From Chloroflexaceae bacterium (GTDB lineage: Bacteria > Chloroflexota > Chloroflexia > Chloroflexales > Chloroflexaceae), in assembly GCA_012032475.1 (NCBI GenBank), contig JAAUSY010000003.1:1-64000 (forward strand): a stretch of DNA of 64,000 nt. Direction: 5' to 3'. This document shows positions 22,084 to 38,564 of the stretch, piece after piece. A program made the translations under genes and the position numbers. Each line of letters begins with the position of its first letter. Within the stretch, counting starts at the first letter, position 1. A model generated the notes under the pieces. It saw only the letters and a list, made by a program, of their open reading frames with translations, was not told the DNA's origin and searched no databases.

Positions 22084-22174
22084 GGGCGGGTCGCATAGTT
22101 GGTCTAGTGCGCGGCATTGGAAATGCCGTAGGGTGTCACAGCCCTCGTGGGTTCGAATCCCACCCCGCCCGCCA
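22084..22174 (+). tRNA. tRNA-Ser(GGA)
   Basis: A class II tRNA with acceptor stem GGGCGGG/CCCGCCC, anticodon stem CGGCA/TGCCG around loop TTGGAAA (anticodon GGA), a long variable arm, T arm GTGGG-TTCGAAT-CCCAC, discriminator G and an encoded CCA. Confidence 0.95.
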
Positions 22175-22197
22175 GGGATGGGCCGGTTTCGGCTCTG

Positions 22198-22800
22198 ATG
22201 GCTTCGGTCTGTTCTCCGTTTGTTCAGGTGCAAGTGCCATTCGGGCGGCATAAACCAGGGAAGCTACGCAGCTTTGAGGATGGCGAGGTGCGTTTCGAGC
22301 CGATGGGCGACCAGGGGTACGCCTGCGACGTGGGACTGCTTACCGTGCCGATGACCGCCCGCTTCCTCATCAACGATGGGCAGCATCGTCGGGCAGCAAT
22401 AGAGGAGGCCCTGCGGGAAAACCCCGACCTGGGCGATGAAACCATCTCGGTCGTGTTCTTCATTGACGCTGGCCTCGAACGCAGCCAGCAAATCTTTGCC
22501 GACCTGAACAAGCACGCCGTGCGCCCGACCCGCTCTATCGGTATCCTCTACGACCACCGCGACCCCTTTGCCCGCCTTGCGCTCAACCTGGTGGAAGTAG
22601 TCCCGATTTTCCGCGACTTCACTGATTGGAACTATACGCAAGGCCACTGGGACAACACAACGCTGTTCGCAACGTATCTTGATGATACGTTAGGCGAGAA
22701 GCATACCAATCGAACCTACCGGGTGATTACCCCGGAGATAGTTGAACGGGTGTTTGAGCGACTGGAGGGCATCAAGTACGTGCCAGGAGTATGGTCGTGA
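22198..22800 (+). pseudogene. Truncated DndB-like (DGQHR) protein
   Basis: About 200 residues. The block FLINDGQHRRAAIEEALREN, followed by VVFFIDAGLERSQQIFADLNKHAVRPTR, is the hallmark of DndB, the regulator of DNA phosphorothioate modification. The usual 70 or so N-terminal residues are missing and the C-terminal third does not match what I know of DndB. The frame begins inside tRNA-Ser and no ribosome site is seen, so this is probably a remnant. No dndCDE genes lie in the window. It sits between tRNA-Ser and the left edge of the integrated element, suggesting relics of an older island at tRNA-Ser. Confidence 0.6.
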
Positions 22801-22984: not shown

Positions 22985-23031
22985 TGGTGGAACGGAGGGG
23001 ACTTGAACCCCTGACCCCCTGCGTGCAAAGC
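22985..23031. other. attL: 3' fragment of tRNA-Ala
   Basis: Forty-seven bases are identical to 39789-39835 and correspond to the 3' part of tRNA-Ala, from the encoded CCA to the anticodon loop. The identity ends abruptly on both sides (next bases TGATA on the left, AGGTG on the right). Confidence 0.95.
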
Positions 23032-23133
23032 TGATACCATTCATTCTCCTACCCCCTCTATACCTGTCATACCCCTTTATAGCGCTTTGTGTTTCTATGG
23101 CACATATCTCAACCTCTCAGGATTTCTCACCCT

Positions 23134-23158
23134 GTTGTTGTCAGCGTTGTTGTCAAAA
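23134..23158. repeat. Left arm-type repeat, possible integrase binding site
   Basis: This 25 bp stretch contains two GTTGTTGTC units and matches 39674-39698 at 24 of 25 positions. It lies 103 bp inside attL; its partner lies 91 bp inside attR. Matched repeats at the two ends suit arm-site binding by the tyrosine integrase. Confidence 0.65.
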
Positions 23159-23167
23159 TTCTCCGCG

Positions 23168-23437
23168 CTACAACCCTTCATAGTCGATCTGCTCCTTGCG
23201 GCGAACCCGAATGATACGCACGGTCCGGGTGTCATCGTCCACGGTGTAGACAATGCGCCAACGCCCTGCTAGCCAGAGACGATAGAAACCTGGTTTGCCT
23301 CGAAGTTCCTTTGAAGCAGGAGGACGAGGGTCTTTTGCCAGACTGCGGAACTGCTGCCGGGCTTGTGCGCGAATATGTCCTGGTAGTGCCTTCACCTCTG
23401 CATACAGTTCAGGGGCAAACTCAACGTGGTAGCTCAC
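23168..23437 (-). CDS. RelE/ParE-type toxin
   Basis: An 89-residue protein with the RelE-superfamily pattern: VEFAPELYAEVKALP, then ELRGKPGFYRLWLAGRWRIVY with YTVDDDTRTVRIIRV and a C-terminal YEGL. Family members are ribosome-dependent RNases (RelE) or gyrase inhibitors (ParE); which one applies is not decided here. It starts inside the end of the antitoxin gene (17 bp overlap), so the two are translationally coupled. It is the leftmost gene of the element. Confidence 0.85.
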   Translation of the reverse strand: MSYHVEFAPELYAEVKALPGHIRAQARQQFRSLAKDPRPPASKELRGKPGFYRLWLAGRWRIVYTVDDDTRTVRIIRVRRKEQIDYEGL

Positions 23438-23711
23438 CGGCAGCCTCCGCTCGATCTAGTTCGGCTTCAAACTCGTCTAGAGGTATCCAGGCGTCATCTG
23501 GAGTGTTCTCAAGTACCTTCATCGCGTCTGCAATCAGTTCCTCATCATCCTCGTCATCCTCCATCGGTTCGACAACAAACGGTTGGACCATCTTCACGAT
23601 GTAAGCTATCAATTGCAACCGCTCCGCTGGCGAAAGTTCGTCTACCAGGCGCAAAACGTGCTGGTAGCGGTCGGGGGTGGTTGTCGGGGTCGGTGCAGTC
23701 ATCGTGGTCAT
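23421..23711 (-). CDS. Antitoxin partner of the RelE/ParE toxin
   Basis: A 96-residue acidic protein (DDEDDEELIADAMKVLENTP). The first part (YQHVLRLVDELSPAERLQLIAY) resembles small helical antitoxin-like proteins that precede RelE genes. ATG 23711 follows AAAGGAGG. The long upstream extension in the same frame lacks a ribosome site. The order antitoxin then toxin with overlap supports a toxin-antitoxin role. The upstream gap to 24131 holds the hairpin at 23952-23980 and no other gene. Confidence 0.7.
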   Translation of the reverse strand: MTTMTAPTPTTTPDRYQHVLRLVDELSPAERLQLIAYIVKMVQPFVVEPMEDDEDDEELIADAMKVLENTPDDAWIPLDEFEAELDRAEAAGELPR

Positions 23712-23951
23712 TGCTGGCCTCCTTTCAATTCGCTTGCCCTCCATTCGTTTGCCCTCCATTGTACCACCTGTGACGGCAAACAGGTGTACCCCTCTGCGTT
23801 GCCCCACGAGGCCGAAACATGTAGCCGTAGGTCATGCAGGTTTCAACCCAGAGGCACCATGCAGACCGTCCTGCGAAGCCTGAGAGGCCATCTGCGCCCC
23901 GTCCCACAACATCCACCACAGCGTGAAAGCAAATTTGTTCTCAATGGAACG

Positions 23952-23980
23952 GATGCCGTTCTCGTTATCAGAACGGCATC
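23952..23980. terminator. Perfect 11 bp hairpin after a minus-strand operon
   Basis: GATGCCGTTCT and its exact complement flank a 7-base loop (CGTTATC). It lies about 150 bases after the stop of the HTH protein gene at 24132 on the minus strand. No run of U follows on either strand, so it may be a weak or factor-assisted terminator or an RNA element. Confidence 0.45.
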
Positions 23981-24131
23981 GTTGCTAGCCCCACTAACAT
24001 CGCCTACCATTTGTACAAGTAGTGACATTCAGGGTTTTGCGCTATCGCCGTCTCCAGGTTGCCATACTCCTGCACAACCAGATCACGAAGACGACGCAGG
24101 CCATCGCGCCGTCTTTGAAGTAGTGGTGTCA

Positions 24132-24650
24132 TCATGTGCATTCCTCCAGCATCCCCAAATAAGCGTCAAGTTCTGCGTCCGTCATCCTCGACAGAGGCTT
24201 CGGAGGTGCTATGGCTTTGACATTCTCAGTGGCCTCGTTTAGTTCGAGTCTCTCCAACTTGACCCCAGTCTCCAGCAAACGAACGGCAGTAGGAAGGTGC
24301 CGCCGGGCTTCCTCTGGACTCATTGCCGAAATCTGCGCGAGGGATAAGATGGCGATGCCAGATAACTGCATCTCGTCAGCTTTGCGCAAGCGTTCCCTCG
24401 ACCGTCTGGAAGCCTCTTTCTTCGCTGCCTCGCGCTGCGCTGCAATAATCTCCTGATCGTAAACAGCAGCACGTTCGACCCATCCATAACGATCCGACCA
24501 TTTGGCGATGGTGCCGAAGGGAATGCCGGTCTCCTCTGCCAGCCGCCGCAAACTTCGTTCACCGCCCCCCTGATCACAGTAGGCCGTGAACGCATCACGG
24601 GCACGAGGAGACTCGCGCTCCTTGTTACCACGACGTGTTGTTGTTGTCAT
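24132..24650 (-). CDS. HTH protein resembling terminase small subunits
   Basis: A 172-residue protein. The N-terminus has a homeodomain-like HTH, LRRLAEETGIPFGTIAKWSDRYGW, followed by a basic coiled coil (AAKKEASRRSRERLRKADEM) and a helical C-terminus. This layout resembles phage terminase small subunits or related HTH adaptors, but no large terminase is present, so packaging is not established. ATG 24650 is preferred; the preceding gene's stop lies two bases before it, so translation is coupled. It closes a run of four genes (25758 to 24132) on the minus strand. Confidence 0.55.
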   Translation of the reverse strand: MTTTTRRGNKERESPRARDAFTAYCDQGGGERSLRRLAEETGIPFGTIAKWSDRYGWVERAAVYDQEIIAAQREAAKKEASRRSRERLRKADEMQLSGIAILSLAQISAMSPEEARRHLPTAVRLLETGVKLERLELNEATENVKAIAPPKPLSRMTDAELDAYLGMLEECT

Positions 24651-24652
24651 AA

Positions 24653-25015
24653 TCAAAAATCCCCGTCCACTTCGTCCACTACCACACCCGCCTGCTTTGC
24701 CCAGGCCGTAAGACGTTTGCCCGCCAGCTTCTCTGCTGGAGTTTGTGATAGATGGCGATGGCCTGGGCGTCTCTCCCTGATAGCCGAGGCTGCGTGGTCA
24801 CGAACACCGATGGTCGGGGAGACCCGCGCTGCCTCCGGGTTGTGCCAGCCTTCTTCCAGCATCTCCAGCGCCGTGAAGTGCGCCAGGAGACCTGCACCCT
24901 GTCTCGCAGCTTCCTGGGCCGCAGCGAGATAAGCGCAATCACGGTCGTTATGGGCTTGCTGAGCGATAGCGCACAGCAGACGAGTGCAGGTCTCCTCGTT
25001 CAGGTAGGGCAGCAT
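24653..25015 (-). CDS. Hypothetical protein
   Basis: A 120-residue protein, helical and Ala-rich in its first half (ETCTRLLCAIAQQAHNDRD), with a basic middle (RERRPGHRHLSQTPAEK) and an acidic end (VVVDEVDGDF). No family is recognised. ATG 25015 has GGAGG seven bases upstream, inside the end of the preceding (frameshifted) gene, so it is translationally coupled. Its stop sits directly before the HTH protein gene. Confidence 0.6.
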   Translation of the reverse strand: MLPYLNEETCTRLLCAIAQQAHNDRDCAYLAAAQEAARQGAGLLAHFTALEMLEEGWHNPEAARVSPTIGVRDHAASAIRERRPGHRHLSQTPAEKLAGKRLTAWAKQAGVVVDEVDGDF

Positions 25016-25017
25016 TA

Positions 25018-25525
25018 TCAAGCCTCCAGTACACCGATCTCGACAAAGCCATTGAAGAGGCTTTGTAGCGCACCCTGTTCCGCCTGTGTTGCATCAAAAA
25101 AAAGCCTGTGCCGACGCTACCTTTCGCTGGATGCTGTTTAGCTCATCTTCCCGTGCAGACAAGGCGACCGCTGCCTGGATATGCTTCTTCTTCGCCGTCT
25201 CCAGATACCCTGGTAGCGCCTTGACCTCCCTCTCGGCTTCCTGGAGCGCCTGCTGTGCCGTCCGATGGGCTTGCCTCAACTCCTCGTGCCGACGCTGCAC
25301 ACCACGATGGGCAAAACGGGACCGTTCCGCAGTCTCTCGTGCAACGAGAAGCGCTGCGTAGTCCCCTTCTCCTTCCCCGTGTTCCTCAAGCTGCTTCACT
25401 CGTTCCTGGGCCAATCTCAATGCTTCAGAACTCTCCTTGAACGTCGGTGAGTAGTTGCGTGAAGCGCTGGCAGCAGCAGCTTCTTCGGCCACAAGGGACT
25501 GGTATTGTTCTACGGTGATTTCCAT
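25018..25525 (-). CDS. Coiled-coil protein, frame interrupted at an eight-base homopolymer
   Basis: The frame from ATG 25525 gives 143 residues of charged coiled coil (LRLAQERVKQLEEHGE; LQEAEREVKAL) and meets TGA at 25094, straight after eight T's (A's at 25096-25103 on the plus strand). One T fewer would open 25 more codons (from DATQAEQGALQ to FVEIGVLEA), stopping at 25018, two bases before the next gene's ATG and with that gene's GGAGG inside. This strongly suggests the longer product is real: either a sequencing or genuine indel, or transcriptional slippage in the run. The function is unknown; coiled coils of this type suit a structural or scaffold role. Confidence 0.6.
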
Positions 25526-25758
25526 TATTGTCTCTTCCCTTCAAGGGCTTCCTTGTACGATACAATTTGCGAGTTCGCTATCTCTTCGTCAGTCATTCCC
25601 GAAAAACGCTTCAGAAGTTGTATGTTCCGGGCCTGCTGAGCACGGAGCATATCTACTCCTGTCAGGCCACTTGCACGATCCAGCGAATAGGTTGTCACTT
25701 CAAAACCATTCCCACCAGGCGCGAACCTTATTCTGGTTCTTTTCTGTGTATTTTGCAT
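25525..25758 (-). CDS. Small hypothetical protein
   Basis: A 77-residue basic protein. The C-terminal half (MLRAQQARNIQLLKRFSGMTDEEIAN) is helical. No family is recognised. ATG 25758 follows AAAGGTGG. Its TAA shares an A with the next gene's ATG, so the pair is translationally coupled. It is the first gene of a four-gene minus-strand unit; the AT-rich gap 25759-25941 upstream probably holds its promoter, although no clean -35/-10 pair stands out. Confidence 0.55.
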   Translation of the reverse strand: MQNTQKRTRIRFAPGGNGFEVTTYSLDRASGLTGVDMLRAQQARNIQLLKRFSGMTDEEIANSQIVSYKEALEGKRQ

Positions 25759-25941
25759 CAATAATCACCACCTTTCTGTCTTAATTATATCATATATAGC
25801 TATCTTTTGCTTCTTGTGGGTGCTTTCTTCGGGATAGTAGATTGTACTCGGTGCTAAGCTGAGTTTCCTCTGTTGTTGCTGTCTTATTCTTTGTGACCAT
25901 TATATGCCCTCCTCGCTATCATGATATGCCTCTGTGTCGGA

Positions 25942-26400
25942 TTATATCGTACAGGGTGTGGTGTTGTGTGATGTGTCCTCCTCCAGCGACCCGCAGGCAT
26001 CTTTGATGACTTTGCCATATCGCACCTGCCAGGACTGTTCACAGACAGGCACCAGCACCCATCCTCCGTCCTGGCTGTAGATAGCCTCTCTCGGCGCTGG
26101 CGCTGGCGCTGCTGGCCTCGCTAGTTCCGGTTGCGCCCAGACCTGCGCAGCCCATTCATCCTCGAATGGGCCGGCGAGGGCTTTCTCGTTCTCTTCACAC
26201 CACCAGAACCGTCCGTCGTCGTCCTCGCCACCCCGCAGTTCACCCGTAGCGGCGAGGAGATGGACACGCAACCTCTTACCGTAGTCAATGAGATCTTCCT
26301 GCGTGAGTGTCTCCAATGGCGCGTGTGCAGGGATGGGCCGTCCTGCACGCTTCAGTTTGACAATAAGTTCGTTGATGCGACCAAGCAATTTTTGCCTCAT
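25942..26400 (-). CDS. Hypothetical protein downstream of primase
   Basis: A 152-residue protein. It starts with a helical region (INELIVKLKRAGRPIPAHAP), has a Trp-rich acidic middle (GRFWWCEENEKALAGPFEDEWAAQVW), a Pro/Ala linker and a C-terminal beta-rich part (WVLVPVCEQSWQVRYG). No family is recognised. ATG 26400 overlaps the primase stop (ATGA), with AAGGAG directly upstream, so it is coupled to primase and probably belongs to the replication module. Confidence 0.55.
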   Translation of the reverse strand: MRQKLLGRINELIVKLKRAGRPIPAHAPLETLTQEDLIDYGKRLRVHLLAATGELRGGEDDDGRFWWCEENEKALAGPFEDEWAAQVWAQPELARPAAPAPAPREAIYSQDGGWVLVPVCEQSWQVRYGKVIKDACGSLEEDTSHNTTPCTI

Positions 26401-29400
26401 CTCCTTCTCCTTCTCCTTCTATGGTCAGAACGAAACCTCAACCTCGTATTCCTCGACTGCCTGATCAAAAGGAATGCCATAGCGTTCACAGAACACTTGT
26501 ATGGCCTCCTCTCGCGTCGTTTCCAGTCCAGACAATCCTCGAACTCAATCTGACAGGCGAACATACCCCCTCGTGTTTCTATATGGAAGAACAAGCTATC
26601 GTAATCGTCGTCGCCTGTCCCTATTGTCCCTTTTTCGTTTTTCGGGGTTCCAGAAATAGGGACAACACATTCACCATTGGAGTGGGGTAAAACGCCACTT
26701 GCCCCTGTTGTCCCTAAAGTCCCTGCGTTTTTTTGACACACATTCATATTCCCATTTACCCCTCTATGCGGAGAGGGATTTTCGGGGCCTATATAATGTA
26801 TATTTTTTGTAGGGACAATAGGGACAGTAGGTACAGGCATCTGTTTTTCCTCATCAGGATGGGTTCCGTTCTTGTCCCTATTTCTCTCTTGCTTCGATTC
26901 CGGATAGAGACAATAGGGACAATCGCCTGTCTCCTTGATACCGAAAATGTCACCATCGAAAATGTCACCAGGAAGGAGTAACACACGAACTTTCTCTCCT
27001 GTTAACGGATTACGCACCTGGTACGTGCGTTGCCGCTTGTCTTGTGCCAGCAATAACTTGTCCCTCTCTAGACCTGTATTGACCACCTGCTTATTCAAGG
27101 GTTGCACACCCTGCGATCTGCGCCATTCATTCACAAGTTTTAGCGCAGCGTCGGGATAGAGGGCAATGGCATCAACCTCGTTGTGTTTGCAGCGAAAACC
27201 GATAGGCGTTCCCCGTTGCCAGAGGACACGTTTCCCCTGCGCCTCGTCCGCATCGTTCAGTAGTTCTTCAGCTTCATCTTGCAAACGGGCCATCTCTGTT
27301 GCCAGCGCATCACTCAGGATGTTCAAGAAAATACGGTGTTGCTTTGCCTCCTGCTGTTGCTGCTGTTGTTCGCCGGCTGCGGTAATCCTTGCCTCGATAT
27401 GCGCCGCGTTCAAGGCGTCGTGCTCGCCCTGGTCAATGTAGCCAGCGCGGTGCAGCCAGGTTGTCAGCAGCAGGAATGCGACGCGATTTTGCCTCAACGC
27501 GCCTGCCGTGCGCCTGTGTCCAGGCAGATCGGCGTCGTCCTGGGCGATACGATCTCGGATCGCCTGACGCAGGCGCTCCTCGCCGACATCAAGAGTCCTC
27601 GCTATCTGCTGCACAAATCCTCGCCAGAAAGCGGCCAGGTGCCCATCCGAACCAGCCTGCTGCAAATCAGCCAGCGCATCGGCATCTACGCTGGTCTGGG
27701 GCAACTCGATTGTGATAAGCCTTGCCATAGCCCCGCTGTCATCGAATTCGGGGAGGGTCTCGGCCGTCGCGACGGCGATGGATCGAGATGTCCGAACCCG
27801 ATCAATCCCCAGTCCCTTTCGGCTGCGGGTTCGCCCCGTGCTTTCGCCGTGGCTATGGAGGAATCTGGAAATCTGATCCTGGCGCATCATCCCAGGCTTG
27901 TAGTCGTCCAGGAGGACGAGGCTATCTCGAAAGGTATGAACAACCTCCTGGAGACCGACGCTGGTCGCGTCCCATTTCGTGACTGGCGCGCCATCGCCTC
28001 GAACTGCGGTGAACGATGGGCCATATAGCGCCATCACAACGCGAACCAGTGCCGACTTGAGGCTACCTGTCGGTGCGTACAACCAGATTGTTGTTCGCCC
28101 TGCGTCTCCATACCAGCGGTGTAGCAGTGGTAGCGCCGCCTGGCCTGCCAGCAGCATGGCAATGTGCTGCTGGCACACCTCGCCTCGGAGGAACCGTAGG
28201 AACGCCTCGGCACCTGCCTGGGTGTCCCCAGCGCCGCACATTTGATAGTGGTTGCCCTGGGTTTCCGCGCCGATCTCACACCGAACCGACAGATCTACGC
28301 CTCGGCTTGTGACACTCCCATCGTTTGCCAGGTAGTGCCAGCGATTGTTTATCCGCTGCCAGCCAGTCGCCGTGTACCTCTCCAGCTTGATCGGGTCGTC
28401 CCCGTGCCTAGAGAGCACCTTGAACGCTCTGAACGCTGTGCCGCCAGCGTCGTCAGCAGTCCCGTCGCCTGCGGCAGCACGAATCGCCTGCATCGCCTTG
28501 CGATTGTCACTCCAGTCGCTTCCGGGAACATTGCCGTGTCGGATAGTGCCCGACGGGGAAAGCACGGCGATATCGTGACTGAACGTCTCGTTATCGCCGT
28601 CCGTCTCGTGGACGTCGGCAACGATTCTCACCTGGTAGTTCGCAAGCTGCACCGGTCGGCCTTTCTCGTCGTGCCCGTAGGTACTACCATCGCTAATCCA
28701 GTAGCTGCGCGGCTTGTGCCTCTCCAGCCAGTTCCAGGCGTCCTGGGACTTCTCAACGACTGCCCTGAACGCCTCAACGCCGTGTGCGAGAATGTAACTG
28801 TCTATATCTACCTTCGGTTCATCAGCACGTCGGGGAAGACGTGCAACACGGCACTTGATGTTCATCGCTTTGAAACGCTGGATCTCTTCCTGGATTGCAT
28901 GAAGCTGGCCTGTGAGGTCGGATGTATCGTCATCTGCCTTCGCGTCCGCCAGCTTCTTTTCAAGCCTCGATTGCTGGCTAACAAGATCCTTGCCGACCAG
29001 CTTTTCGGCATTCTGGATAGAAAACCGTTCGCCAGGCGAGAGTACAAACGGATGGTTGCGGGCCTCGCTGTCGTAGCAGATCGTGACCGACTTGCCAGCC
29101 AGGGGGCGCAGCGCCTCGTACGGCAGATAACCTATGCCAGGCTGCGCGACACACGGTACGCCGCTCTGGTGGGCCAGCATCGCTTTCAATTCGCCCTCGG
29201 CCAGCACGACGCTGCTGGCGTCTTTCGCCAGGTGCAGGCCGAAGAGGACTGGTTCGCCTCCAGCGAACAGGCCTACGCCAGCAGGAGAAAGATATTTCGG
29301 GCCGGTGCCAGCGTTCAGCTTGCGGCCTCGTAGCATCCGACAATTGCCGTCGGGGTCGTAGTAGGGGAGGGTGATACACCCTCGCAGCAGGTTTTTCGGT

Positions 29401-29822
29401 TTCCCCTGTGGACCCAGAACACCCCCATCCATCGCGCCTATATAGGCGTCGTGATCGTTCCTGAACAAGAAATCTCCGACGCCCCCTCGCCAGACATCAG
29501 GATGAAAACCGACATCGAACGCCTGGAGGGTCTCATCGGCAAAGCCTCGACGGTGCAGGTAGTCGAGTGCCTGTCGCGCATCGGCGCTGCCCCCGAACAG
29601 GTACGACGCACACCATTCGGCAACAGCCTTATAGCCGCGCCAGGCCAGCGCCGTCTGTTCTGGCGTCAGGCTTTTTTGTACTGGTGCGCTGTCCGTCGCG
29701 TCTGACGCCTCGCTATCTCGCTCGATGTGCCCACACTGGTTGCATATCCAGATTTGCTTACGGCTGGCGTAGTAAAATCGGTCTTCCCCTCCACAAACAG
29801 GGCACGGTTTACTCTTCTTCAT
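26397..29822 (-). CDS. Large DNA primase-helicase of the element
   Basis: About 1141 residues. Seen: a CHC2-like zinc finger near the N-terminus (CPVCGGEDRFYY and CNQCGH), a DnaG-like segment (QALDYLHRRGFADETLQAFDVGF), a TOPRIM-like region (SVVLAEGELKAMLAH and SVTICYDSEA, about 200-250) and a C-terminal ATPase domain with a Walker A-like loop (YAPTGSLKSALV, about 583-591) and Walker B (DSLVLLDDYKP, about 635). The layout is that of phage and plasmid primase-helicases that start replication. After about residue 940 the sequence is low-complexity; its C-terminus ends in a poly-Arg tail encoded by a CTCCTT-type repeat. ATG 29822 is preferred (GGAGGGGAG just upstream). Confidence 0.85.
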   Translation of the reverse strand: MKKSKPCPVCGGEDRFYYASRKQIWICNQCGHIERDSEASDATDSAPVQKSLTPEQTALAWRGYKAVAEWCASYLFGGSADARQALDYLHRRGFADETLQAFDVGFHPDVWRGGVGDFLFRNDHDAYIGAMDGGVLGPQGKPKNLLRGCITLPYYDPDGNCRMLRGRKLNAGTGPKYLSPAGVGLFAGGEPVLFGLHLAKDASSVVLAEGELKAMLAHQSGVPCVAQPGIGYLPYEALRPLAGKSVTICYDSEARNHPFVLSPGERFSIQNAEKLVGKDLVSQQSRLEKKLADAKADDDTSDLTGQLHAIQEEIQRFKAMNIKCRVARLPRRADEPKVDIDSYILAHGVEAFRAVVEKSQDAWNWLERHKPRSYWISDGSTYGHDEKGRPVQLANYQVRIVADVHETDGDNETFSHDIAVLSPSGTIRHGNVPGSDWSDNRKAMQAIRAAAGDGTADDAGGTAFRAFKVLSRHGDDPIKLERYTATGWQRINNRWHYLANDGSVTSRGVDLSVRCEIGAETQGNHYQMCGAGDTQAGAEAFLRFLRGEVCQQHIAMLLAGQAALPLLHRWYGDAGRTTIWLYAPTGSLKSALVRVVMALYGPSFTAVRGDGAPVTKWDATSVGLQEVVHTFRDSLVLLDDYKPGMMRQDQISRFLHSHGESTGRTRSRKGLGIDRVRTSRSIAVATAETLPEFDDSGAMARLITIELPQTSVDADALADLQQAGSDGHLAAFWRGFVQQIARTLDVGEERLRQAIRDRIAQDDADLPGHRRTAGALRQNRVAFLLLTTWLHRAGYIDQGEHDALNAAHIEARITAAGEQQQQQQEAKQHRIFLNILSDALATEMARLQDEAEELLNDADEAQGKRVLWQRGTPIGFRCKHNEVDAIALYPDAALKLVNEWRRSQGVQPLNKQVVNTGLERDKLLLAQDKRQRTYQVRNPLTGEKVRVLLLPGDIFDGDIFGIKETGDCPYCLYPESKQERNRDKNGTHPDEEKQMPVPTVPIVPTKNIHYIGPENPSPHRGVNGNMNVCQKNAGTLGTTGASGVLPHSNGECVVPISGTPKNEKGTIGTGDDDYDSLFFHIETRGGMFACQIEFEDCLDWKRRERRPYKCSVNAMAFLLIRQSRNTRLRFRSDHRRRRRRR
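26617..26920. repeat. Cluster of nine GTCCCT-type repeats (iteron-like) in the primase gene
   Basis: GTCCCT or its complement occurs at 26617, 26626, 26658, 26710, 26719, 26811, 26820, 26874 and 26915. Five copies keep the nine-base form TTGTCCCTA exactly, in both orientations. They fall in all frames of the poorly conserved C-terminal part of the primase gene, which argues against a protein-level cause. Clustered direct and inverted sites inside a replication gene suit an initiator-binding origin. No origin function has been shown. Confidence 0.55.
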
Positions 29823-30040
29823 CACTCCCCTCCATTCAGATCTTGCAGCATCCACTTCGTCTCGTCTCTGTCCCGTCCTTGTGCCATCACTCGATACCGC
29901 TCACCGTCCTTAACCACCACCACGATCTGCCTAAACTCGTTCTGAAACCGGGCGTGTTCATACCTGGTGTGATCCACCTGGTAGAACCCCTGATCACGAA
30001 GACCCCTCGTCAGTTCCTCGATAGGTATGTGTAGTCTCAT
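29822..30040 (-). CDS. Small hypothetical protein upstream of primase
   Basis: A 72-residue basic protein (HIPIEELTRGLRDQGFYQVDH, then a VVVVKDGERYRVMAQG hairpin-like stretch), with no recognised family. ATG 30040 has only a weak ribosome site (AAAGG). Its TGA shares a base with the primase ATG (TGATG), so it leads the replication operon. An in-frame upstream extension to 30211 lacks a ribosome site and crosses the predicted small RNA. Confidence 0.55.
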   Translation of the reverse strand: MRLHIPIEELTRGLRDQGFYQVDHTRYEHARFQNEFRQIVVVVKDGERYRVMAQGRDRDETKWMLQDLNGGE

Positions 30041-30088
30041 ATACTGTGCCTTTCTGTCGCTGTATTGCGCTTTCTGGTGCCCGTATTC

Positions 30089-30117
30089 TTGCCCGATCTC
30101 TCCCCTCGTGGTAAAAT
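30089..30117 (+). promoter_or_regulatory. Promoter of a predicted small RNA, with operator-like inverted repeat
   Basis: TTGCCC (30089-30094), a 17 bp spacer and TAAAAT (30112-30117) form a promoter-like pair on the plus strand. Inverted repeats CTCCCCT (30100-30106) and AGGGGAG (30120-30126) straddle the -10 box, suggesting an operator. Confidence 0.5.
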
Positions 30118-30123
30118 ATAGGG

Positions 30124-30197
30124 GAGTATTGAATCGGCTTATGCACCGTTTGTTATCATGTCCTGTCCGTGCTGCTCCAGCGGCGCGGCCTTTTTTT
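30124..30197 (+). ncRNA. Predicted small RNA divergent from the replication operon
   Basis: The predicted transcript begins about seven bases after the TAAAAT box and ends at a strong intrinsic terminator, giving about 75 nt. No start codon with ribosome site lies in it. It runs opposite to the replication genes and starts just upstream of them, so it could control primase-operon expression or copy number, like antisense RNAs in plasmids. This is inferred from signals only. Confidence 0.4.
30167..30197 (+). terminator. Intrinsic terminator
   Basis: A 9 bp stem (30167-30175 and 30180-30188, with two G-T pairs) around loop TCCA is followed by CC and seven T's. It ends plus-strand transcripts. 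Confidence 0.75.
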
Positions 30198-30560
30198 ATG
30201 CCTTTTCGCATGGTCCTTTCCCTTTCAACTTGTCTTAACCTTTGTGCTAAACAAAAGAGGCAGATCCTGATACCCCGATTTTGAACGAGATACCTGAATC
30301 TGCCTCAGCGTCTTTCAGCTCGGACAGCCGTCTCATTCGATTTCTTGCATTGTACCTTAATTTTGCCGTCTTACAGACTGTCAAAAAGCCTCGTCCCATC
30401 GCAAAAAGAGTTTTGTTACTTACAAAACGCAACAAAGAGATGGCGACGCAAAGCCTTTTTTCGCGCAGCCCCCTCGTTCTACTATCAGCCTGTCTTATAG
30501 TTGTCATCAGATGTTGTTATAGTTGTCCAGGTTATAGGGCCTGCTGATGGGGTTCTCGAC

Positions 30561-30590
30561 AGCGTTTTCTTTTGTACCGAAGAAAATGCT
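30561..30590. repeat. Inverted repeat containing a 16 bp element-wide motif
   Basis: Arms AGCGTTTTCTT and AAGAAAATGCT (10 of 11 complementary) enclose TTGTACCG. Bases 30574-30589 are the exact complement of GCATTTTCTTCGGTAC, which recurs at 37952-37967 and with two changes at 37501-37516. The gap 30198-30846 shows no convincing gene; besides this motif it holds the terminator at 30758. Confidence 0.6.
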
Positions 30591-30757
30591 GTGCCCTCTC
30601 TAGCCGCAATGAAGATGTAGGATAATCACGCATTGTCCCACCATGTGGGCGTGAGTTTCATTTTGTCCTCGTTCTGTGTGCCATTTTGCCCGTCTCGTTG
30701 CTTTGTAGGTACAGACAAAGGTTCTTCTGTTCATAAGCCTTTCTAAGATGTCCCTGG

Positions 30758-30797
30758 GGCGGCCAGCGTGGTGTCATCGCTGGGCCGCCTTGTTTTT
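30758..30797 (+). terminator. Strong plus-strand intrinsic terminator without an assigned gene
   Basis: Stem GGCGGCC-AGCG / CGCT-G-GGCCGCC (one bulged G, 30758-30789) is followed by TTGTTTTTTT. On the minus strand no T-run follows, so it terminates plus-strand RNA. No plus-strand gene is evident upstream, so it may end a second small RNA or block transcription into the sigma-like operon. Confidence 0.7.
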
Positions 30798-30846
30798 TTC
30801 CCTTGCCCCTGTAAAGCAACGAGAGTGCAAAAATGGTACAGGAATT

Positions 30847-31380
30847 TCACGCCGATGCCAGAACTGCTTCCTGGGCTTTCAAAAGCCTTTTCGTGACAAC
30901 ACGCCGATGCACGCCAACCTTCCTGGCCGTCTCCGTGATGTTGTAGCCGGCAGCCCGGCACAGAACAATATCTTGTGTGTCTTCTGGCAGAGACGCGAGG
31001 AGTTCCTGTGCCTCTGCTAGTTCAAAGCCAGCCTCGTCCTTTCCGTAAGCATCAACAAAGTCCTCCACAAGCAACTCATCCTCCTCCTCCGTCGAAACCA
31101 CCATTCCGATGGTTTGGGTGCTGTGCTTATGGATATGGTCTCGGACATAGGTGCGTGCGTAGAATACGCTCCTCTGGACATACCAGGCGGGGGTGTTCCC
31201 TGGACGTGTCTCAAGCGCCTGGACAACTTCCAGTAGGCCAGTGTGAAAGGCATCTTCAAGGTCTTGTGGATTTAGTCCCAGGCCCCCTAACTTGTAGTAG
31301 ACGGCTGCTTTGCAGCGATAGTACAGGGCATCGAAATCAACTTCCTGAGTGGCCTTCAGGTGGGTTTTGGTGGTTGTCAC
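30847..31380 (-). CDS. Sigma-70-like factor of the element
   Basis: A 177-residue protein. Seen: a region-2-like helix set (DALYYRCKAAVYYKLGGLG, then QDLEDAFHTGLLEVVQALE), a linker with STQTIGMVVST, and a C-terminal HTH resembling region 4 (LPEDTQDIVLCRAAGYNITETARKVGVHRRVVTKRL). It could direct RNA polymerase to element promoters. The start is GTG 31380, overlapping the stop of the preceding gene (GTGA). It is third in an operon with the two genes upstream, driven by the promoter near 32215. Weak conservation of the promoter-melting part leaves room for a plain regulator. Confidence 0.65.
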   Translation of the reverse strand: MTTTKTHLKATQEVDFDALYYRCKAAVYYKLGGLGLNPQDLEDAFHTGLLEVVQALETRPGNTPAWYVQRSVFYARTYVRDHIHKHSTQTIGMVVSTEEEDELLVEDFVDAYGKDEAGFELAEAQELLASLPEDTQDIVLCRAAGYNITETARKVGVHRRVVTKRLLKAQEAVLASA

Positions 31381-31679
31381 GCGGCCACCTCTCTTTCGTC
31401 CTCGATGGCGTTGGTGAGGTCGGCCAGGAATGACTCGCGCTGCGCTTTGGTGGCTGTTAGCTCGATGTGCTGACGAACACTTGGCATCGCCAGGAACGCC
31501 ACCAAATGTTCCATCGTCTCGATGTCCAGGTAGTACTGGCCGATAGAGATCGAACCGTCGGGGTAGATAGCGAAGTCTGCGACCTGTGTGTTCATCTCGA
31601 CCAGGGGGAACGGGTCCTCCCCTTGGTCGCCCACCAGCGCGATGTCCTTGTGAGTGGAGGTGAGGTACTTGGACTGCAT
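31377..31679 (-). CDS. Hypothetical protein
   Basis: A 100-residue acidic protein (QVADFAIYPDGSISIGQYYLD; the C-terminus AIEDEREVAA is acidic). No family is recognised. It is flanked by overlaps on both sides: TAATG with the SWIM protein gene and GTGA with the sigma-like gene. All three genes should therefore be made together from the repressed promoter at 32210-32238. Confidence 0.55.
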   Translation of the reverse strand: MQSKYLTSTHKDIALVGDQGEDPFPLVEMNTQVADFAIYPDGSISIGQYYLDIETMEHLVAFLAMPSVRQHIELTATKAQRESFLADLTNAIEDEREVAA

Positions 31680-32131
31680 TACGCCACCTCCATTTCCATC
31701 AAAAGCGCCTCAACCTTCGCCCATCGCTCGGAGAGTTTGTCGTAGGTCTTCCAGTCACCTCGGTTCTCTGCGGCCTCGACCTGGTGCATTAAACTATCGG
31801 CCTCTGCCTCCAGCGCCTCGTGATAGCGGTAAAGGATGCGTGCAGCAGCACGATGCCAGCAGGGGAGGTGGTGGGCGAACGCCTGGCACTGGCAGACGCC
31901 GTTGGCAGCGTAGGTGGTGTCGCTGGTGTAGCTCGGAATGAGGGCGGTGCCGTCCTTTGCAATCTGGATGGTATCTACAGGAGGGTTCAAGAAGAAGTCG
32001 TAGGCTGTATTGATGGCCGTCAGCCATTTGGGGTGATTTGCAGCTTTTTGCTGCGCGTCTTCGACAACCTGCACCAAAGTGTCCAGGTCCATGCTTTGTA
32101 GTGACAGGGTGTGATATGATGGTGTTGCCAT
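31679..32131 (-). CDS. SWIM-type zinc-finger protein
   Basis: A 150-residue protein. Its middle reads NGVCQCQAFAHHLPCWHRAAARIL, fitting the SWIM pattern C-x-C...C-x-H that binds zinc and is found in DNA-related proteins. The N-terminus is helical and the C-terminus is a charged coiled coil (ADSLMHQVEAAENRGDWKTY). ATG 32131 follows AAAGG. It is the first gene of an operon whose promoter carries an operator probably read by the adjacent XRE protein. A nucleic-acid-related role is likely but not defined. Confidence 0.72.
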   Translation of the reverse strand: MATPSYHTLSLQSMDLDTLVQVVEDAQQKAANHPKWLTAINTAYDFFLNPPVDTIQIAKDGTALIPSYTSDTTYAANGVCQCQAFAHHLPCWHRAAARILYRYHEALEAEADSLMHQVEAAENRGDWKTYDKLSERWAKVEALLMEMEVA

Positions 32132-32160
32132 TACGGGATACCTTTCTGTTTGGCGTTGGC

Positions 32161-32187
32161 CCTGGGGGTGCCGATAACACCCCCAGG
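32161..32187. promoter_or_regulatory. Hairpin in the 5' leader of the SWIM operon
   Basis: A perfect 10 bp stem, CCTGGGGGTG / CACCCCCAGG, with a 7-base loop lies in the transcribed leader between the promoter and the SWIM gene start. It may stabilise the mRNA or act as a binding site. No riboswitch class is recognised. Confidence 0.55.
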
Positions 32188-32208
32188 GTTGCTTTATTGT
32201 TATGAGTG

Positions 32209-32281
32209 TAGTATATCACACTATTTATGGTTTGTCAATAGGGAAATATACTTGATTATTTATATCTAGTGCGATATAATC
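32209..32281. promoter_or_regulatory. Divergent promoters with paired XRE operators
   Basis: Minus strand: TTGACA (32238-32233), 17 bp, TATACT (32215-32210). Plus strand: TTGATT (32252-32257), 17 bp, TATAAT (32275-32280). Over each -10 box lies one copy of a shared site, TAGTGTGATATACTA (32223-32209) and TAGTGCGATATAATC (32267-32281). Placement predicts one repressor controlling both directions, most simply the XRE protein encoded next door. Confidence 0.75.
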
Positions 32282-32314
32282 TGAGTTAGATATTCTATGT
32301 ATTAGGAGTGAATT

Positions 32315-32557
32315 ATGACCTACTTGCGAATACAAGAACTGGCTGAGAAGGAAGGGCTAAACATAACAACTCTTTCAAGAAGAGCTAAGGTGTCATATCC
32401 AGCCATGCATAAAATTTGGCATGGAGACGTGAAGCAACTCAACATTCAAACACTGGACAAGATTGCGTGGGCTTTGGGTGTTAAAGTTAGTGATTTGTTT
32501 GGAGGTGAACCAGAAGAACCATCGGGGAACGACGTGCCTCTGCGCCTGGCCGCCTGA
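32315..32557 (+). CDS. XRE/Cro-type repressor
   Basis: An 80-residue DNA-binding protein. The HTH domain (ELAEKEGLNITTLSRRAKVS...WALGVKVSDLFGGEPEE) spans residues 5-65. ATG 32315 follows TTAGGAGTGAAT, a good ribosome site. It faces the SWIM/sigma operon across a promoter region with matching operators over both -10 boxes, so it probably represses itself and that operon, in the manner of a phage-type switch. No ligand domain is present. Confidence 0.85.
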   Translation: MTYLRIQELAEKEGLNITTLSRRAKVSYPAMHKIWHGDVKQLNIQTLDKIAWALGVKVSDLFGGEPEEPSGNDVPLRLAA

Positions 32558-32704
32558 AGCATCAGACGCAGAGGCGTTGTCGTTGACGCGTTGCGCTGCA
32601 AACCCTGGCAAGGCCAGCGCACCGCGAGGGGTATTGTAGCAGAGATGTGTCTGTTCCCTGCTTATGCTACAATCTCATGAGAGTTCAATCGAAAGGAACA
32701 CCGT

Positions 32705-32929
32705 ATGGATATTGAACAAGCGGTTGTTGAACGACTCCGCACCCTGCCGACGGAAGAACAGCGTGAAGTGCTCGATTTCGCGGACTTCTTGCACCAGCGC
32801 CGTCGCAAGCACCCCTATCGCGGGGTGAAGGGACTGTGGAACGATCTGGATATCCAGGTCAGTGCCGACGAGATTGACGAAGCGCGGCGTGAGATGTGGA
32901 GTACGTTTCCGCGAGAGGACATCATATGA
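32705..32929 (+). CDS. VapB-like antitoxin
   Basis: A 74-residue protein. Its start (MDIEQAVVERLRTLPTEEQREVLDFADFL) is typical of DUF2281-type antitoxins; an acidic C-terminus (DEIDEARREMWSTFPRED) would bind the toxin. AAAGGA precedes ATG 32705. Its stop overlaps the toxin start (ATGA), so both are translationally coupled. Confidence 0.82.
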   Translation: MDIEQAVVERLRTLPTEEQREVLDFADFLHQRRRKHPYRGVKGLWNDLDIQVSADEIDEARREMWSTFPREDII

Positions 32930-33330
32930 GTGCAGTTCTCGCTGACACACACGCGGTTGTCTGGTATCTTGGCACCCCTGGCAAACTAACCGCAGCGGCA
33001 ACAGCGGCGCTGGATGGCGCAACACAGGCAGGTGCGCCGATCTATGTTGCCTCTATCTCCGTGATCGAAGTCCTCTATCTCGTAGAAAAAGGGCGACTCC
33101 TGCCACTCGCACTGGCGCGGCTGCTGAATGCGCTAGATGACCCGCACAGCGGCCTGGTACCCGTAACGCTTGACCTGGCAATTGTGCAGGCGATGCCGCG
33201 TATTGCCTATACCGCGGTACCCGAAATGCCCGACCGCATTATCGCAGCCACCGCGTTGTATCTGGGTGTGCCGCTCGTCACCCGTGATCTGCGTATTCGG
33301 GCATCTGGCATAACAACGATCTGGTCATAA
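32926..33330 (+). CDS. VapC-type PIN-domain toxin
   Basis: A 134-residue PIN-domain nuclease. Seen: an N-terminal Asp in VLADTHAVVWYL, the second acidic position near ASISVIEVLYLVEKG and the third in PEMPDRIIAATALYLGVPLVTRD. VapC proteins cut RNA (tRNA or rRNA) when released from VapB. ATG 32926 overlaps the antitoxin stop, which is why the longer frame from 32896 is rejected. It is one of three such pairs in the element. Confidence 0.87.
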   Translation: MSAVLADTHAVVWYLGTPGKLTAAATAALDGATQAGAPIYVASISVIEVLYLVEKGRLLPLALARLLNALDDPHSGLVPVTLDLAIVQAMPRIAYTAVPEMPDRIIAATALYLGVPLVTRDLRIRASGITTIWS

Positions 33331-33428
33331 ACCGCACTGATTCCAGACGGTGCAACCGATACGCGATCACCTTCTGGGTTTCCCGTCGTTCGGCTACGTC
33401 GAGGAGGGGGATACCTTGATCGAGGAGA

Positions 33429-33470
33429 TTTTTTGCTGAATTTTCCAGGTCTGGAAATTCCAGCAAAAAA
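33429..33470. repeat. 42 bp near-perfect palindrome
   Basis: Twenty-base arms (33429-33448 and 33451-33470) match at 18 positions around a central GT. The arms begin with TTTTTTGCTG and end with CAGCAAAAAA, so it reads almost the same on both strands and is not a normal terminator. Confidence 0.8.
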
Positions 33471-33550
33471 CCAGTCGAAAATGTGGCTCTTGTCGTGCCT
33501 GTCACCTCAGCAATCTCCTGCTGTGTCCAGCCCAGACGGTGCAACCGAAA

Positions 33551-33570
33551 GGTATAAATCAATTTATACC
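33551..33570. repeat. 20 bp perfect palindrome with TAAAT-CA-ATTTA core
   Basis: Two 9 bp arms (GGTATAAAT and ATTTATACC) flank CA. The core is the complement of that at 33734-33753, while the outer four bases differ there but still pair. Confidence 0.85.
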
Positions 33571-33733
33571 TTTTACCCTCTCATAAACTTCTGCTTGCAC
33601 TGAGAAATCGTCAATACGTATTAACAATTTGTCGTAGACTTCAGCAGCCTGGACAAGTGTGGGCCAGGTTTCTTCAGGGGCTTTGTGAATAGCAATGAGG
33701 TGTGTGGTGCGCTCGGTGAGCTGCACAGGTGGG

Positions 33734-33753
33734 GTGTTAAATTGATTTAACAC
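33734..33753. repeat. 20 bp perfect palindrome with TAAAT-TG-ATTTA core
   Basis: Arms GTGTTAAAT and ATTTAACAC flank TG. It has the same length and core as 33551-33570 with compensating changes in the outer arm, so the symmetry itself appears conserved. Confidence 0.85.
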
Positions 33754-34050
33754 CCCCTCATACACTTCAGCAGCCTGCATAAGTTGTGTAATAGATGCTG
33801 GTGTTCTGTTTACATTCTTTGCATATTCTCGGTATCCTCCCCCACTATTCCCTCTTCCTGCTGTGTCCAGCCCAGACGGTGCAACCGATACGCGATCACC
33901 TTGCCCACCACCTGTGCAATCTGCACATCGCACACACAACCAGCACTGAAGCAACGCGCTGTACTACCCCACAAGGCACGAAAGACACTGCACCTGTGCC
34001 CTGGGTATGGAAACAAGCCCATCGCCTCTTAAAACGGCGCACAGCGCGTC

Positions 34051-34497
34051 TCAAGGCATAACCATTATGATCACGGCAATCGTCTCACCATTGCCAGCCC
34101 GTTCGATGGCCTCCGTTCGCGCCTCTTCGGGCGTGGATGGCAACCACTCTGGAAGTTCAATCCATTCCAGTTCGGCCAGGAAGTTGAAGGGAGGGGGAGG
34201 GGTGTCAACTGTAACCGCACCGTCATCGCCGTTTTTTTCCTCTCCAATGCGATAATCTGTACCACCTGTAACCGTTGTAACCGTTGTAACTGCGTTTTTA
34301 GTAAAATCCCCATGAGAAATCAATTTCTCAAATTTTTGCTTTTTTGTGGTTACATCGGTTACATCGGTTACACCACCAGGCGTTTGTGGCTTTCTGGTGC
34401 CAGAAACAAGCTCTTGTGGTGCGGTTACACCTGCGGTTACATCTTCGCCCCTCCCTGGTTTGGTGGAGATGGTGCGGCGAGAAGGTAGAGGGGCGTT
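34051..34497 (-). pseudogene. C-terminal remnant of a replication-type protein (putative)
   Basis: The minus-strand frame is open from a TAA at about 34500 to the stop at 34051 but has no ATG. It reads VTDVTDVTTKKQKFEKLISH and later FNFLAELEWIELPEWLPSTP, a style seen at the low-complexity ends of plasmid and phage primases. Hexamers GTAACC recur through it. A related frame continues beyond the stop up to about 34728. It is probably a truncated gene; the gap to 34776 has nothing else. Confidence 0.35.
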
Positions 34498-34776
34498 TTA
34501 AGGGACTTCGGCAGCAAAGCCATAGTATGTATGGCCTCTCTCGCTTTCGTTCGTTCCTGGCCGTCCTGTGAGGTCTTCTCTGCTGGTAGGTGTGTACAAT
34601 GTGCAGGTTGTACGGACAGGCGAACAAAAACGGGTGCCGTCTCCGACACCGTTTGTAGTCCTTGTAAAAACTGCCCTTCTCGTGACTGGCGAGATAGCTT
34701 TGATATCTCGGTTCCGCGTTTCCCCCAAAGGCTGGCTTTTTACTCTGCCTCGTCCTCTGCCTTTGTATGAGACACA

Positions 34777-35133
34777 TCAGGTGATCGGTAGGTACACCAT
34801 CATATCCTGATATTCATCCTCGGAAGAAGCCCCGGCAATCAACGCCAGTTCAGCTATCATTGCCCCGATGCCGATGTCCAGGTCAATCACCAGAATGCCA
34901 GGGACATGGCGTCCCCGAACCAGGTGATCGGCCAGATGGTTCGGCATGGATTTGCGATTATTCGTAACCAGAACAAAGCCATGTACTTCACACCATTCGA
35001 GAATCTCCGGGTCGGGAGTGCCAAGCGGAGGCGCACCAGGAGACCCGATGGTCCAGACGGTCAATCCTGGTTCCGTTCGGAGTAGTTGCGTGCGATAGAC
35101 CGGGGGAATATGTTCATCCAGCAGGTAGCGCAT
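34777..35133 (-). CDS. DUF5615-type PIN-like toxin
   Basis: A 118-residue protein with MRYLLDEHIPP (metal-binding Asp), TPDPEILEWCEVHGFVLVTNNRKSMPNH and VPGILVIDLDIGIGAMIAEL, the DUF5615 pattern related to PIN nucleases. It starts inside the end of the DUF433 gene (20 bp overlap). The DUF433/DUF5615 pair is a known toxin-antitoxin arrangement; activity here is inferred. Confidence 0.82.
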   Translation of the reverse strand: MRYLLDEHIPPVYRTQLLRTEPGLTVWTIGSPGAPPLGTPDPEILEWCEVHGFVLVTNNRKSMPNHLADHLVRGRHVPGILVIDLDIGIGAMIAELALIAGASSEDEYQDMMVYLPIT

Positions 35134-35473
35134 CAGGGAGTGCCTCGCTTGCAGAGGATTGCTGCGCTGCCTTCAACTGGCGCAGTCGTTGCACCACCGG
35201 CGGAGGGTTCTGTCTCTGGGCTTCACGGGACTGACGCGCAAACTCCAGCCAGTCTGCCAGATAATCGTCTACCTGCTGGCGATTGCGGAAGTAGTAGAGA
35301 ATGGTGGCATAGACCTGCTCCAGACTGACGGTGTGGAACCGCGTGGCAATCTCCTCTGGTGACTCACCGCGGTGAATGTAGTGGTACAAAATGCTCTCAA
35401 TGCCTATCCGCGTTCCTTTGATACGGATGTCATCGGGAGCCAGGAAATCAAAATAGTCCTGGAGGAAAGACAT
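35114..35473 (-). CDS. DUF433-type antitoxin
   Basis: A 119-residue protein with the DUF433 core DDIRIKGTRIGIESILYHYI and RGESPEEIATRFHTVSLEQVYATILYYFRN, an HTH-like fold. A Gln-rich helical tail (REAQRQNPPPVVQRLRQLKAAQ) may bind the toxin. ATG 35473 follows GAGGTGAACCG. It is translated first and overlaps the toxin gene, as expected for an antitoxin. Confidence 0.82.
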   Translation of the reverse strand: MSFLQDYFDFLAPDDIRIKGTRIGIESILYHYIHRGESPEEIATRFHTVSLEQVYATILYYFRNRQQVDDYLADWLEFARQSREAQRQNPPPVVQRLRQLKAAQQSSASEALPDALPAG

Positions 35474-35598
35474 CGGTTCACCTCTTCCTTACTCAACCCT
35501 TGCCCATAGCCTTATTGTATCATGCTGGATCTGCGCTGCTTCGTGCAGCGTCCTTCTTTGCACGTAACACAAGACACAACACGAACATCCTCACCATT

Positions 35599-35627
35599 GA
35601 CGAATGTGTAGCAAGATGCTACAATTT
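35599..35627 (+). promoter_or_regulatory. Promoter and operator of the right-hand XRE gene
   Basis: TTGACG (35599-35604), 17 bp and TACAAT (35622-35627) form a strong promoter 33 bp before the gene at 35661. A perfect palindrome, TGTAGCA-AGA-TGCTACA (35609-35625), covers the -10 box, so the encoded regulator probably represses its own unit. Confidence 0.75.
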
Positions 35628-35660
35628 GCGTAATACAGAACACAACGTACAATGTGAGGT

Positions 35661-35888
35661 ATGAAATTGAGAACGAACCTGCAAATTCTCCTGGCCCAGA
35701 AAGGCCAGCGAGAGAAACGGCGCATCACACTGCGCCAGGCGGCAAAGGAGACGGGGATAAGCTATCGTACAGTGCTGCTGGCGTCGAGAGACGAGTTACG
35801 AGAGATACCCGTCGAAGTGATTGAGAAACTCTGTGGGTACTTCGGGTGCGAACCAGGAGATTTGTTCTATCTTGACCGAAGTGAGTGA
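35661..35888 (+). CDS. XRE-type HTH regulator
   Basis: A 75-residue protein. The HTH (ITLRQAAKETGISYRTVLLASRDELREIP...KLCGYFGCEPGDLFYL) spans residues 22-70, of the Cro/C1 HTH_26 type. ATG 35661 follows GTGAGGT. Its promoter carries a palindrome over the -10 box. It heads a plus-strand run of membrane, ATPase and small genes ending with the integrase, so it may control the mobility module. Confidence 0.83.
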   Translation: MKLRTNLQILLAQKGQREKRRITLRQAAKETGISYRTVLLASRDELREIPVEVIEKLCGYFGCEPGDLFYLDRSE

Positions 35889-35897
35889 GGTGCAACC

Positions 35898-36347: not shown

Positions 36348-36359
36348 AGTGAGGTGAGT

Positions 36360-37445: not shown

Positions 37446-37548
37446 GTTCGCACGCCTGTCTGGTCGTCAAGGACAATCGAGGATAATCTACGGTCATCCA
37501 GTATTTTCTTCGGTATATAAGCCAACAGCGGCAGCAAAGGATGGTACC

Positions 37549-37952: not shown

Positions 37953-37967
37953 CATTTTCTTCGGTAC
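37952..37967 (+). promoter_or_regulatory. Element-wide 16 bp motif
   Basis: GCATTTTCTTCGGTAC lies 21 bases before the small membrane gene at 37989 and is the exact complement of 30574-30589; 37501-37516 matches 14 of 16. Two of the three copies lie a short way upstream of small genes, consistent with a promoter or regulator site used by the element. Confidence 0.45.
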
Positions 37968-37988
37968 CTAACAAACAGGAGGGTCTCT

Positions 37989-38189: not shown

Positions 38190-38207
38190 CTGCGCCTACT
38201 GTGCCCA

Positions 38208-38562: not shown

Positions 38563-38564
38563 AC

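Follow-up and report, generated by a model that had tools for sequence, protein, structure and literature searches.

The integrated element and its primase-helicase gene

The window, i.e., the whole 64,000-nt stretch of Chloroflexota DNA analyzed here, contains an integrated element of 16.85 kb (22985-39835), which is bounded by a perfect 47-bp direct att repeat at tRNA-Ala. The features of the element are as follows.

22985-23031, no strand: left att copy, 47 bp identical to the tRNA-Ala 3′ end (repeat search)
24132-24656, minus strand: small terminase subunit homologue, terS (family match)
25942-26400, minus strand: overlapping downstream ORF of 152 aa, starting at the primase stop, no family
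26397-29855, minus strand: primase-helicase ORF of 1152 aa with Zn ribbon, DnaG/Toprim-type primase, DUF927-type helicase, winged helix and iteron-coded linker
26615-26922, no strand: iteron cluster, word TTGTCCCTA (motif searches and codon shuffles)
26725-26809, no strand: AT-rich stretch separating the inner iteron sets, 61% AT (element 45%), putative melting region
26943-27344, minus strand: winged-helix region, which would read the iterons; its closest structural match is SaPIbov1 Rep residues 453-559
32315-32557, plus strand: Cro/CI-type HTH regulator (repressor; family match)
34210-34441, no strand: second iteron-like cluster, TGTAACC in eight exact copies, which form two opposed sets around a 73% AT gap
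38248-38562, plus strand: excisionase-like HTH protein (family match)
38565-39653, plus strand: tyrosine integrase (family match)
39789-39835, no strand: right att site at the 3′ end of tRNA-Ala (39789-39864, minus strand)

The integrase, excisionase-like and HTH regulator genes are encoded on the plus strand, and the primase-helicase and terS genes on the minus strand. This gene order is that of PICIs, and the element shares with them the size class (~15 kb), the att sites and the opposed modules. No capsid or tail structural families were detected among the element ORFs scanned, and many small ORFs belong to no family. The element is PICI-like, or phage-satellite-like. It also carries toxin-antitoxin-like genes (32705-35473; DUF2281/PIN and DUF433/DUF5615) and a ParE-like ORF (23168-23437), and a DndB-like ORF (22147-22800) lies just outside the left att copy, beside tRNA-Ser.

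The primase-helicase matched DUF927 with an E-value of 0.0005 for the whole protein, just below the Pfam cut-off, and above the cut-off in a phylum-wide scan. The family profile matched the SaPIbov1 Rep sequence (8tch) with an E-value of 0.00099. An AlphaFold2 model of the winged-helix region (mean pLDDT 70) shows a winged-helix-like fold, for which a second-look alignment ranked SaPIbov1 Rep (8tch) best, with Z 9.3 over 99 residues, and gave Z 6.0 for SCCmec Cch. With a model of the helicase plus winged helix (pLDDT 64), SaPIbov1 Rep (8tch) and Cch (5dgk) took ranks 1-3 at a probability of 0.98-1.00 and an E-value of only ~0.04; the Foldseek E-values are weak (0.04 for the helicase model and 1.4 for the winged helix alone), and the models are moderately confident only. 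The sequence and fold matches, each weak and together concordant, suggest that the protein is an initiator related to SaPI Rep.

The linker peptides are of low complexity (VPTVPIVP/GTIGTG); VTVVTV-like repeated peptides occur in Bacteroidetes primases. At 26470-26530, the tail of the primase ORF seems to shift frame, and a protein-like segment, ETTREEAIQVFCERYGIPFDQAVEEYEVEVSF, lies in another frame. This seems to be either a natural break or an assembly error. We infer that the tail and the linker are translated, although translation of the tail is uncertain because the reading frame is seemingly broken near 26500.

The iteron cluster inside the coding sequence

An initial annotation of this DNA had reported nine GTCCCT-type sites in 304 bp of the gene, in both orientations and several frames, five of them exact 9-mers. 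A motif search of the window confirmed these counts: GTCCCT occurs nine times within 26617-26920 on both strands, and TTGTCCCTA occurs five times, at 26657, 26708, 26810, 26872 and 26914, the last copy ending at 26922. The cluster copies are located at 26615+, 26624+, 26657-, 26708+, 26717+ (GTCCCT only), 26810-, 26819-, 26828- (one mismatch), 26872+, 26905- (one mismatch) and 26914-. When one mismatch was allowed, there were 10 cluster copies and an isolated copy at 27058. As the sites occupy four of the six strand/frame combinations, the repeat is not a peptide repeat.

TTGTCCCTA is expected 0.30 times in the window, and five copies were reached in none of 100 dinucleotide shuffles. Genome-wide (4.6 Mb) it occurs 15 times, five of them in the cluster. 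GTCCCT occurs 34 times over the entire window versus 35 expected, and its excess is therefore purely local. The comparison with shuffled coding sequence that the annotation had called for gave the same picture. In 1000 synonymous-codon shuffles of the gene, GTCCCT reached at most five copies in the region versus the nine observed; with any word allowed, the top 6-mer count in 304 bp never exceeded seven (nine observed) and the top 7-mer count never exceeded six (eight observed), so that the observed counts were attained in 0/1000 shuffles. Nor is the motif equally common throughout the gene, which the annotation had counted against its proposal: nine of 11 copies fall within 9% of the gene. 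A scan for 7-mers with six or more copies within 350 bp, both orientations being represented, picked out only two regions of the 64-kb window, the GTCCCT cluster and 34210-34441, and 20 other contigs of the genome (279,618 bases) gave one match.

The layout of the cluster can be written in gene direction, with '+' for the word as it stands left of the core and with numbers for start-to-start distances. The window cluster then reads ++(9) 34 − 52 ++(9) [103] −−(9) 41 + 34 −−(9). Two opposed iteron sets thus flank an AT-rich region, as in PICI origins.

Clusters at related primases and in viral contigs

Close relatives of the primase-helicase were found at four places in three of 150 genomes of the class (G117, G123 twice and G148), at 41-48% identity and in Chloroflexaceae, Oscillochloris and Chloroflexales. 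They match along much of the protein, and the similarity stops before the cluster, which bears out the earlier description of a poorly conserved C-terminal region. A single-protein search returned no relatives in the genome contigs or the viral contigs; a search with the five-member alignment returned five loci among the genome contigs and none in the viral contigs. Two of the five loci lack the C-terminal region (L063, at a contig end, and L065, where the frame ends); in L065, the relative at 3763-5149 is cut before this region and a transposase-like ORF follows it. The proteins of L054 and L051 had no matches in the viral contigs.

All three close relatives for which the C-terminal region was available carry a cluster in the same place, each of its own word: TGGATCA in L048 (12 copies), GTCGATC in L049 (eight copies) and TGTAACC in L050 (eight copies). 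The ORFs of L048 and L049 also pass through the cluster and end in a similar short segment, and the L050 stop codon falls inside the cluster. According to the initial annotation, a protein conserved among relatives that do not share the motif would contradict its proposal. This holds literally, as each close relative has another word, yet a cluster is present in the same place in 3/3 of them. Since iteron sequence can change with the initiator, conservation of the motif is the wrong test for iterons and a misleading one. The Prim-Pol relatives L051, L052 and L054, which are more distant, have their cluster at the end of the primase or beyond it.

In the phylum, a scan of 301 genomes detected DUF927 at 16 places in 10 of them. 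A both-orientation cluster of at least six copies lies near the 3′ end of 12/16 DUF927 primases, compared with 2/201 control ORF ends, and both positive controls are one and the same site. Among the 12 are the window's own primase and, in a single genome, three copies that are nearly identical; eight different words are used in all. One of the remaining primases has five copies only, and three (G205, G349 and G396) have no cluster. When 16 words were tabulated against 18 clusters, the words lay on the diagonal, each essentially restricted to the cluster it came from; the exceptions are TGTAACC, shared by the second window cluster, L050, L051 and L096, and TGTCCCT, of which L095 has six copies as well.

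The layout is often similar where the words differ. The layouts of L050, + 23 − 43 ++(9) [80] − 18 − 43 + 23 −−(10), and of the viral contig L119, + 20 −− 43 +++(9,9) [94] −−− 45 + 21 −−(10), are similar to that of the window, each with another word. The order of 10 signs is identical, copy by copy, between the window and L051, and L050, L054 and L119 show the window's order too once runs are collapsed. Isolated far copies (one each in five loci) were dropped and three clusterless loci excluded before mirror symmetry was compared with shuffled gaps and signs. As p<0.05 was obtained in 10/21 clusters, mirror symmetry is frequent but not universal. With the inner gap placed by hand, its AT content exceeded that of the flanks in 15 of 16 other loci; the same holds for both window clusters.

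We also searched 2.9 million viral contigs independently of genes, using only TGTCCCT or TGTAACC triples at 9-bp spacing. This reverse search yielded 29 TGTCCCT and 95 TGTAACC stretches; 109 loci were analyzed, with 15 of the 95 TGTAACC stretches outside the set. At least two opposite-orientation copies were present in 49/109 loci, and in 42 of these 49 an ORF scan, taking the longest ORF within 500 bp, returned an ORF. These 42 loci and 39 same-orientation-only loci were scanned for families, and 28 loci belong to neither set (no near ORF or a single opposite copy). The 42 ORFs comprise VapE-like (16), DUF5906 (17), DUF927 (5), Prim-Pol (7) and Cch HTH (4) proteins, the families overlapping. 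None of the primase families was found in the 39 same-orientation-only loci. Same-orientation triples were set aside, as they often lie in collagen-like phage genes (20/39).

By homology, the 42 ORFs form groups of 21, 5, 2 and 2 and twelve singletons. In each of the 28 ORFs that make up the groups of 21 and 5 and one pair (L201 and L216), the cluster follows the stop codon directly; in none does it lie mainly within the ORF. The TGTCCCT loci L136, L143, L152 and L159 have the window's core (105 versus 103) and one arm (51-52, then 24-34). As the reverse-search loci share the arrangement with the cluster after the stop codon, the arrangement in the window is ordinary and its in-frame position is not.

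Words and winged helices would be expected to vary together. Whether the C-terminal domain tracks the word was examined in 21 VapE-type proteins, with a null result (13/21 versus 11/21 nearest neighbors). In smaller sets, same-word pairs have nearly identical winged helices and different-word pairs do not, a pattern confounded by relatedness. No both-orientation cluster was found at the primase 3′ end in L123-L127, L130 and L131, which are Prim-Pol or Toprim-only relatives from actinobacterial phages and plasmids and one Salinibacter phage, or in L122, L128 and L129. Salinibacter pSR14 has nine copies directly after the primase stop, and in pSR11 the signal is limited to a weak '++ 100 −−'. 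As a terminase gene is present on both, they may not be plain plasmids.

Several repeats lie elsewhere. CGCGCCA clusters, mostly in one orientation, occur in L055, L057, L058 and L059 (~9000-11000 each), flanked by a different fused primase and, upstream, by a regulator-like gene; they may represent another origin class and, as they lie upstream of a different primase, were excluded from the counts. Both-orientation clusters away from the primase 3′ end were seen in L050 (721-890; GCAACCA, six copies) and L061 (7785-8114; GGGGCAC, seven copies). Separately, Rhodococcus linear-plasmid proteins annotated as 'telomere-binding protein' match a DUF927 primase-helicase along roughly three quarters of its length, and these matches sit near plasmid ends.

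A probable replication origin embedded in its initiator gene

We consider it highly likely that the cluster is the replication origin of the integrated PICI-like element, with the primase-helicase of the surrounding gene as its initiator. An origin hidden in coding DNA had been suggested by the initial annotation, and this suggestion gains support from the adjoining iteron-binding-type domain, from the opposed iteron sets round the AT-rich gap, from the recurrence of clusters at DUF927 primases compared with control ORF ends, and from SaPIbov1 Rep as the best structural match. The C-terminal winged-helix domain would bind the TTGTCCCTA words, and through the two opposed word sets a pair of hexameric helicases would be loaded face to face on either side of the AT-rich gap. 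The gap would then melt and the primase part would begin synthesis. In most relatives the origin would follow the initiator stop codon, whereas in the window's family the ORF would read through it, so that the origin would double as a poorly constrained protein linker. Iteron reading and head-to-head hexamers are proposed here by homology to SaPI Rep and Cch, and binding, melting and replication at this locus are inferred.

What is unusual is the ORF running through the origin; origins inside genes are already known elsewhere. The O protein of phage lambda is not known to be a primase-helicase. In N15 and PY54, the origin lies within the repA coding sequence. Classical iteron plasmid origins (RepA/RepE type) have an initiator of the Rep_3/RepA family without a helicase, whereas the initiator neighboring this cluster is a primase-helicase.

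As outlined in the respective papers, PICI origins lie directly 3′ of (pri-)rep and have an AT-rich region with an iteron set on either side (PMC6092414), the C-terminal domain of SaPI Rep reads iterons downstream of its own gene (PMC7581432), and the opposed repeats of SaPI origins recruit two head-to-head hexamers (PMC9894130). The present locus shares with these systems (SaPIbov1, EcCICFT073) the opposed short iterons, the AT-rich core and the (pri-)rep 3′ end (PMC6092414, PMC7581432, PMC9894130), as well as a DUF927-type helicase with a C-terminal DNA-binding domain and int, xis, repressor and terS in the element. Unlike in the SaPIs and PICIs described there, the ORF continues through the iterons, the host belongs to Chloroflexota, and primase and helicase are fused. 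Because the cluster lies inside the ORF and not, as in most relatives, immediately 3′ of the gene, the putative origin is a variant, not a member, of the SaPI/PICI type, embedded in its own initiator gene.

The DUF927 helicase fold is also that of SCCmec Cch, described as containing DUF927 and as related to SaPIbov1 Rep; Cch2 is self-loading and reads repeats downstream of its gene, but its origin, as presented there, has three 5-nt iterons outside coding DNA and the protein has no fused primase (PMC7581432). In the PLE of Vibrio cholerae, the satellite initiator and its iterons likewise change together between relatives, although the initiator is of the RepA_N type and the ~30-bp iterons are intergenic; the account of PLE holds that the initiator domain and the origin were exchanged and that Odn, a phage nuclease cutting the iterons, is the likely selective agent (PMC8263062). 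The pRN1 orf904 protein (Prim-Pol, helicase and winged helix) also has its origin just 3′ of the initiator gene and keeps structure where sequence is not kept, but this origin is one 100-nt stem-loop, which its authors describe as without iteron structure (PMC4234260). The lambda ori lies within the gene of its own initiator, O, as here, but is made of four 19-bp repeats in mid-gene (PMC3985674). In N15 and PY54, repA is reported to suffice for circular replication (PMC10612081). Among the titles and abstracts searched, in which subscription papers are thinly covered, none reports a DUF927 primase-helicase gene with an iteron origin inside it.

If the cluster is such an origin, a reading frame and an origin share ~300 bp while the words change freely, and relatives with similar spacing and other words offer a sharp test case for the co-evolution of initiator and site and for its causes, a phage nuclease that cuts iterons being a documented pressure on satellites (PMC8263062). 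The PICI replication plan would extend to Chloroflexota, and such clusters would provide an annotation-free way to find origins in phages, satellites and plasmids with such initiators.

Clustered short words in both orientations would also fit an operator, bound by a repressor or by the primase-helicase itself to regulate the replication genes instead of serving as an origin, and HTH regulators are present in the element. However, the cluster sits at the gene's 3′ end and not at a promoter, at other primases it comes after the stop codon, and paired sets round an AT-rich gap are the published pattern of PICI origins. We therefore regard an operator as very improbable. An origin and autoregulation by the initiator are compatible, and the cluster may act as a regulator site in such a second role.

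A role in packaging (as a pac site bound by the small terminase) or in partition (as a centromere bound by a Par protein) is, in our view, very improbable. Sites of both kinds may be iterated, terS is ~2 kb away, and a ParB-like gene adjoins the primase in the relative L048; nevertheless, the window ORFs scanned include no Par gene, and the recurrent neighbor is a primase-helicase, in DUF927, VapE and Prim-Pol types alike. That the cluster is a by-product of slippage or of a peptide repeat is scarcely credible: the linker is of low complexity and perfect 9-bp tandem duplications abound (19 in the window versus 1.15 expected; 77 of period 9 in 343,618 bases versus 13 of period 8 and eight of period 10), but slippage yields same-orientation copies in one frame, whereas these copies are inverted, spread over several frames and mirrored at a distance, and other words recur outside coding DNA beside homologous genes. 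This cause was dropped on the inverted copies and several frames. The excess of 9-bp tandem duplications was seen in the window and in 20 other contigs of the genome.

The second cluster, which in window direction reads + 57 ++(9) 72 −−−(9,9) 57 − 12 −, lacks a neighboring initiator gene, and a search of the genome, which is 92% complete, returned neither VapE nor DUF5906 proteins. Searches for its relatives by protein or DNA matched only the words themselves. It may be either a relic or an origin for the initiator of another element. We also consider, as a rather unlikely extension, that the element uses two dialects, its own TTGTCCCTA origin being joined by an initiator-less TGTAACC origin that is fired by the initiator of a helper or rival phage, or that acts as a decoy; origin layout would then be an inherited grammar in which all 8-18 words are exchanged in concert, even under coding constraint. 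Genome-wide, all three TGTAACC doublets at 9-bp spacing fall in the second cluster, and its layout resembles those of the VapE-type origins L172 and L206.
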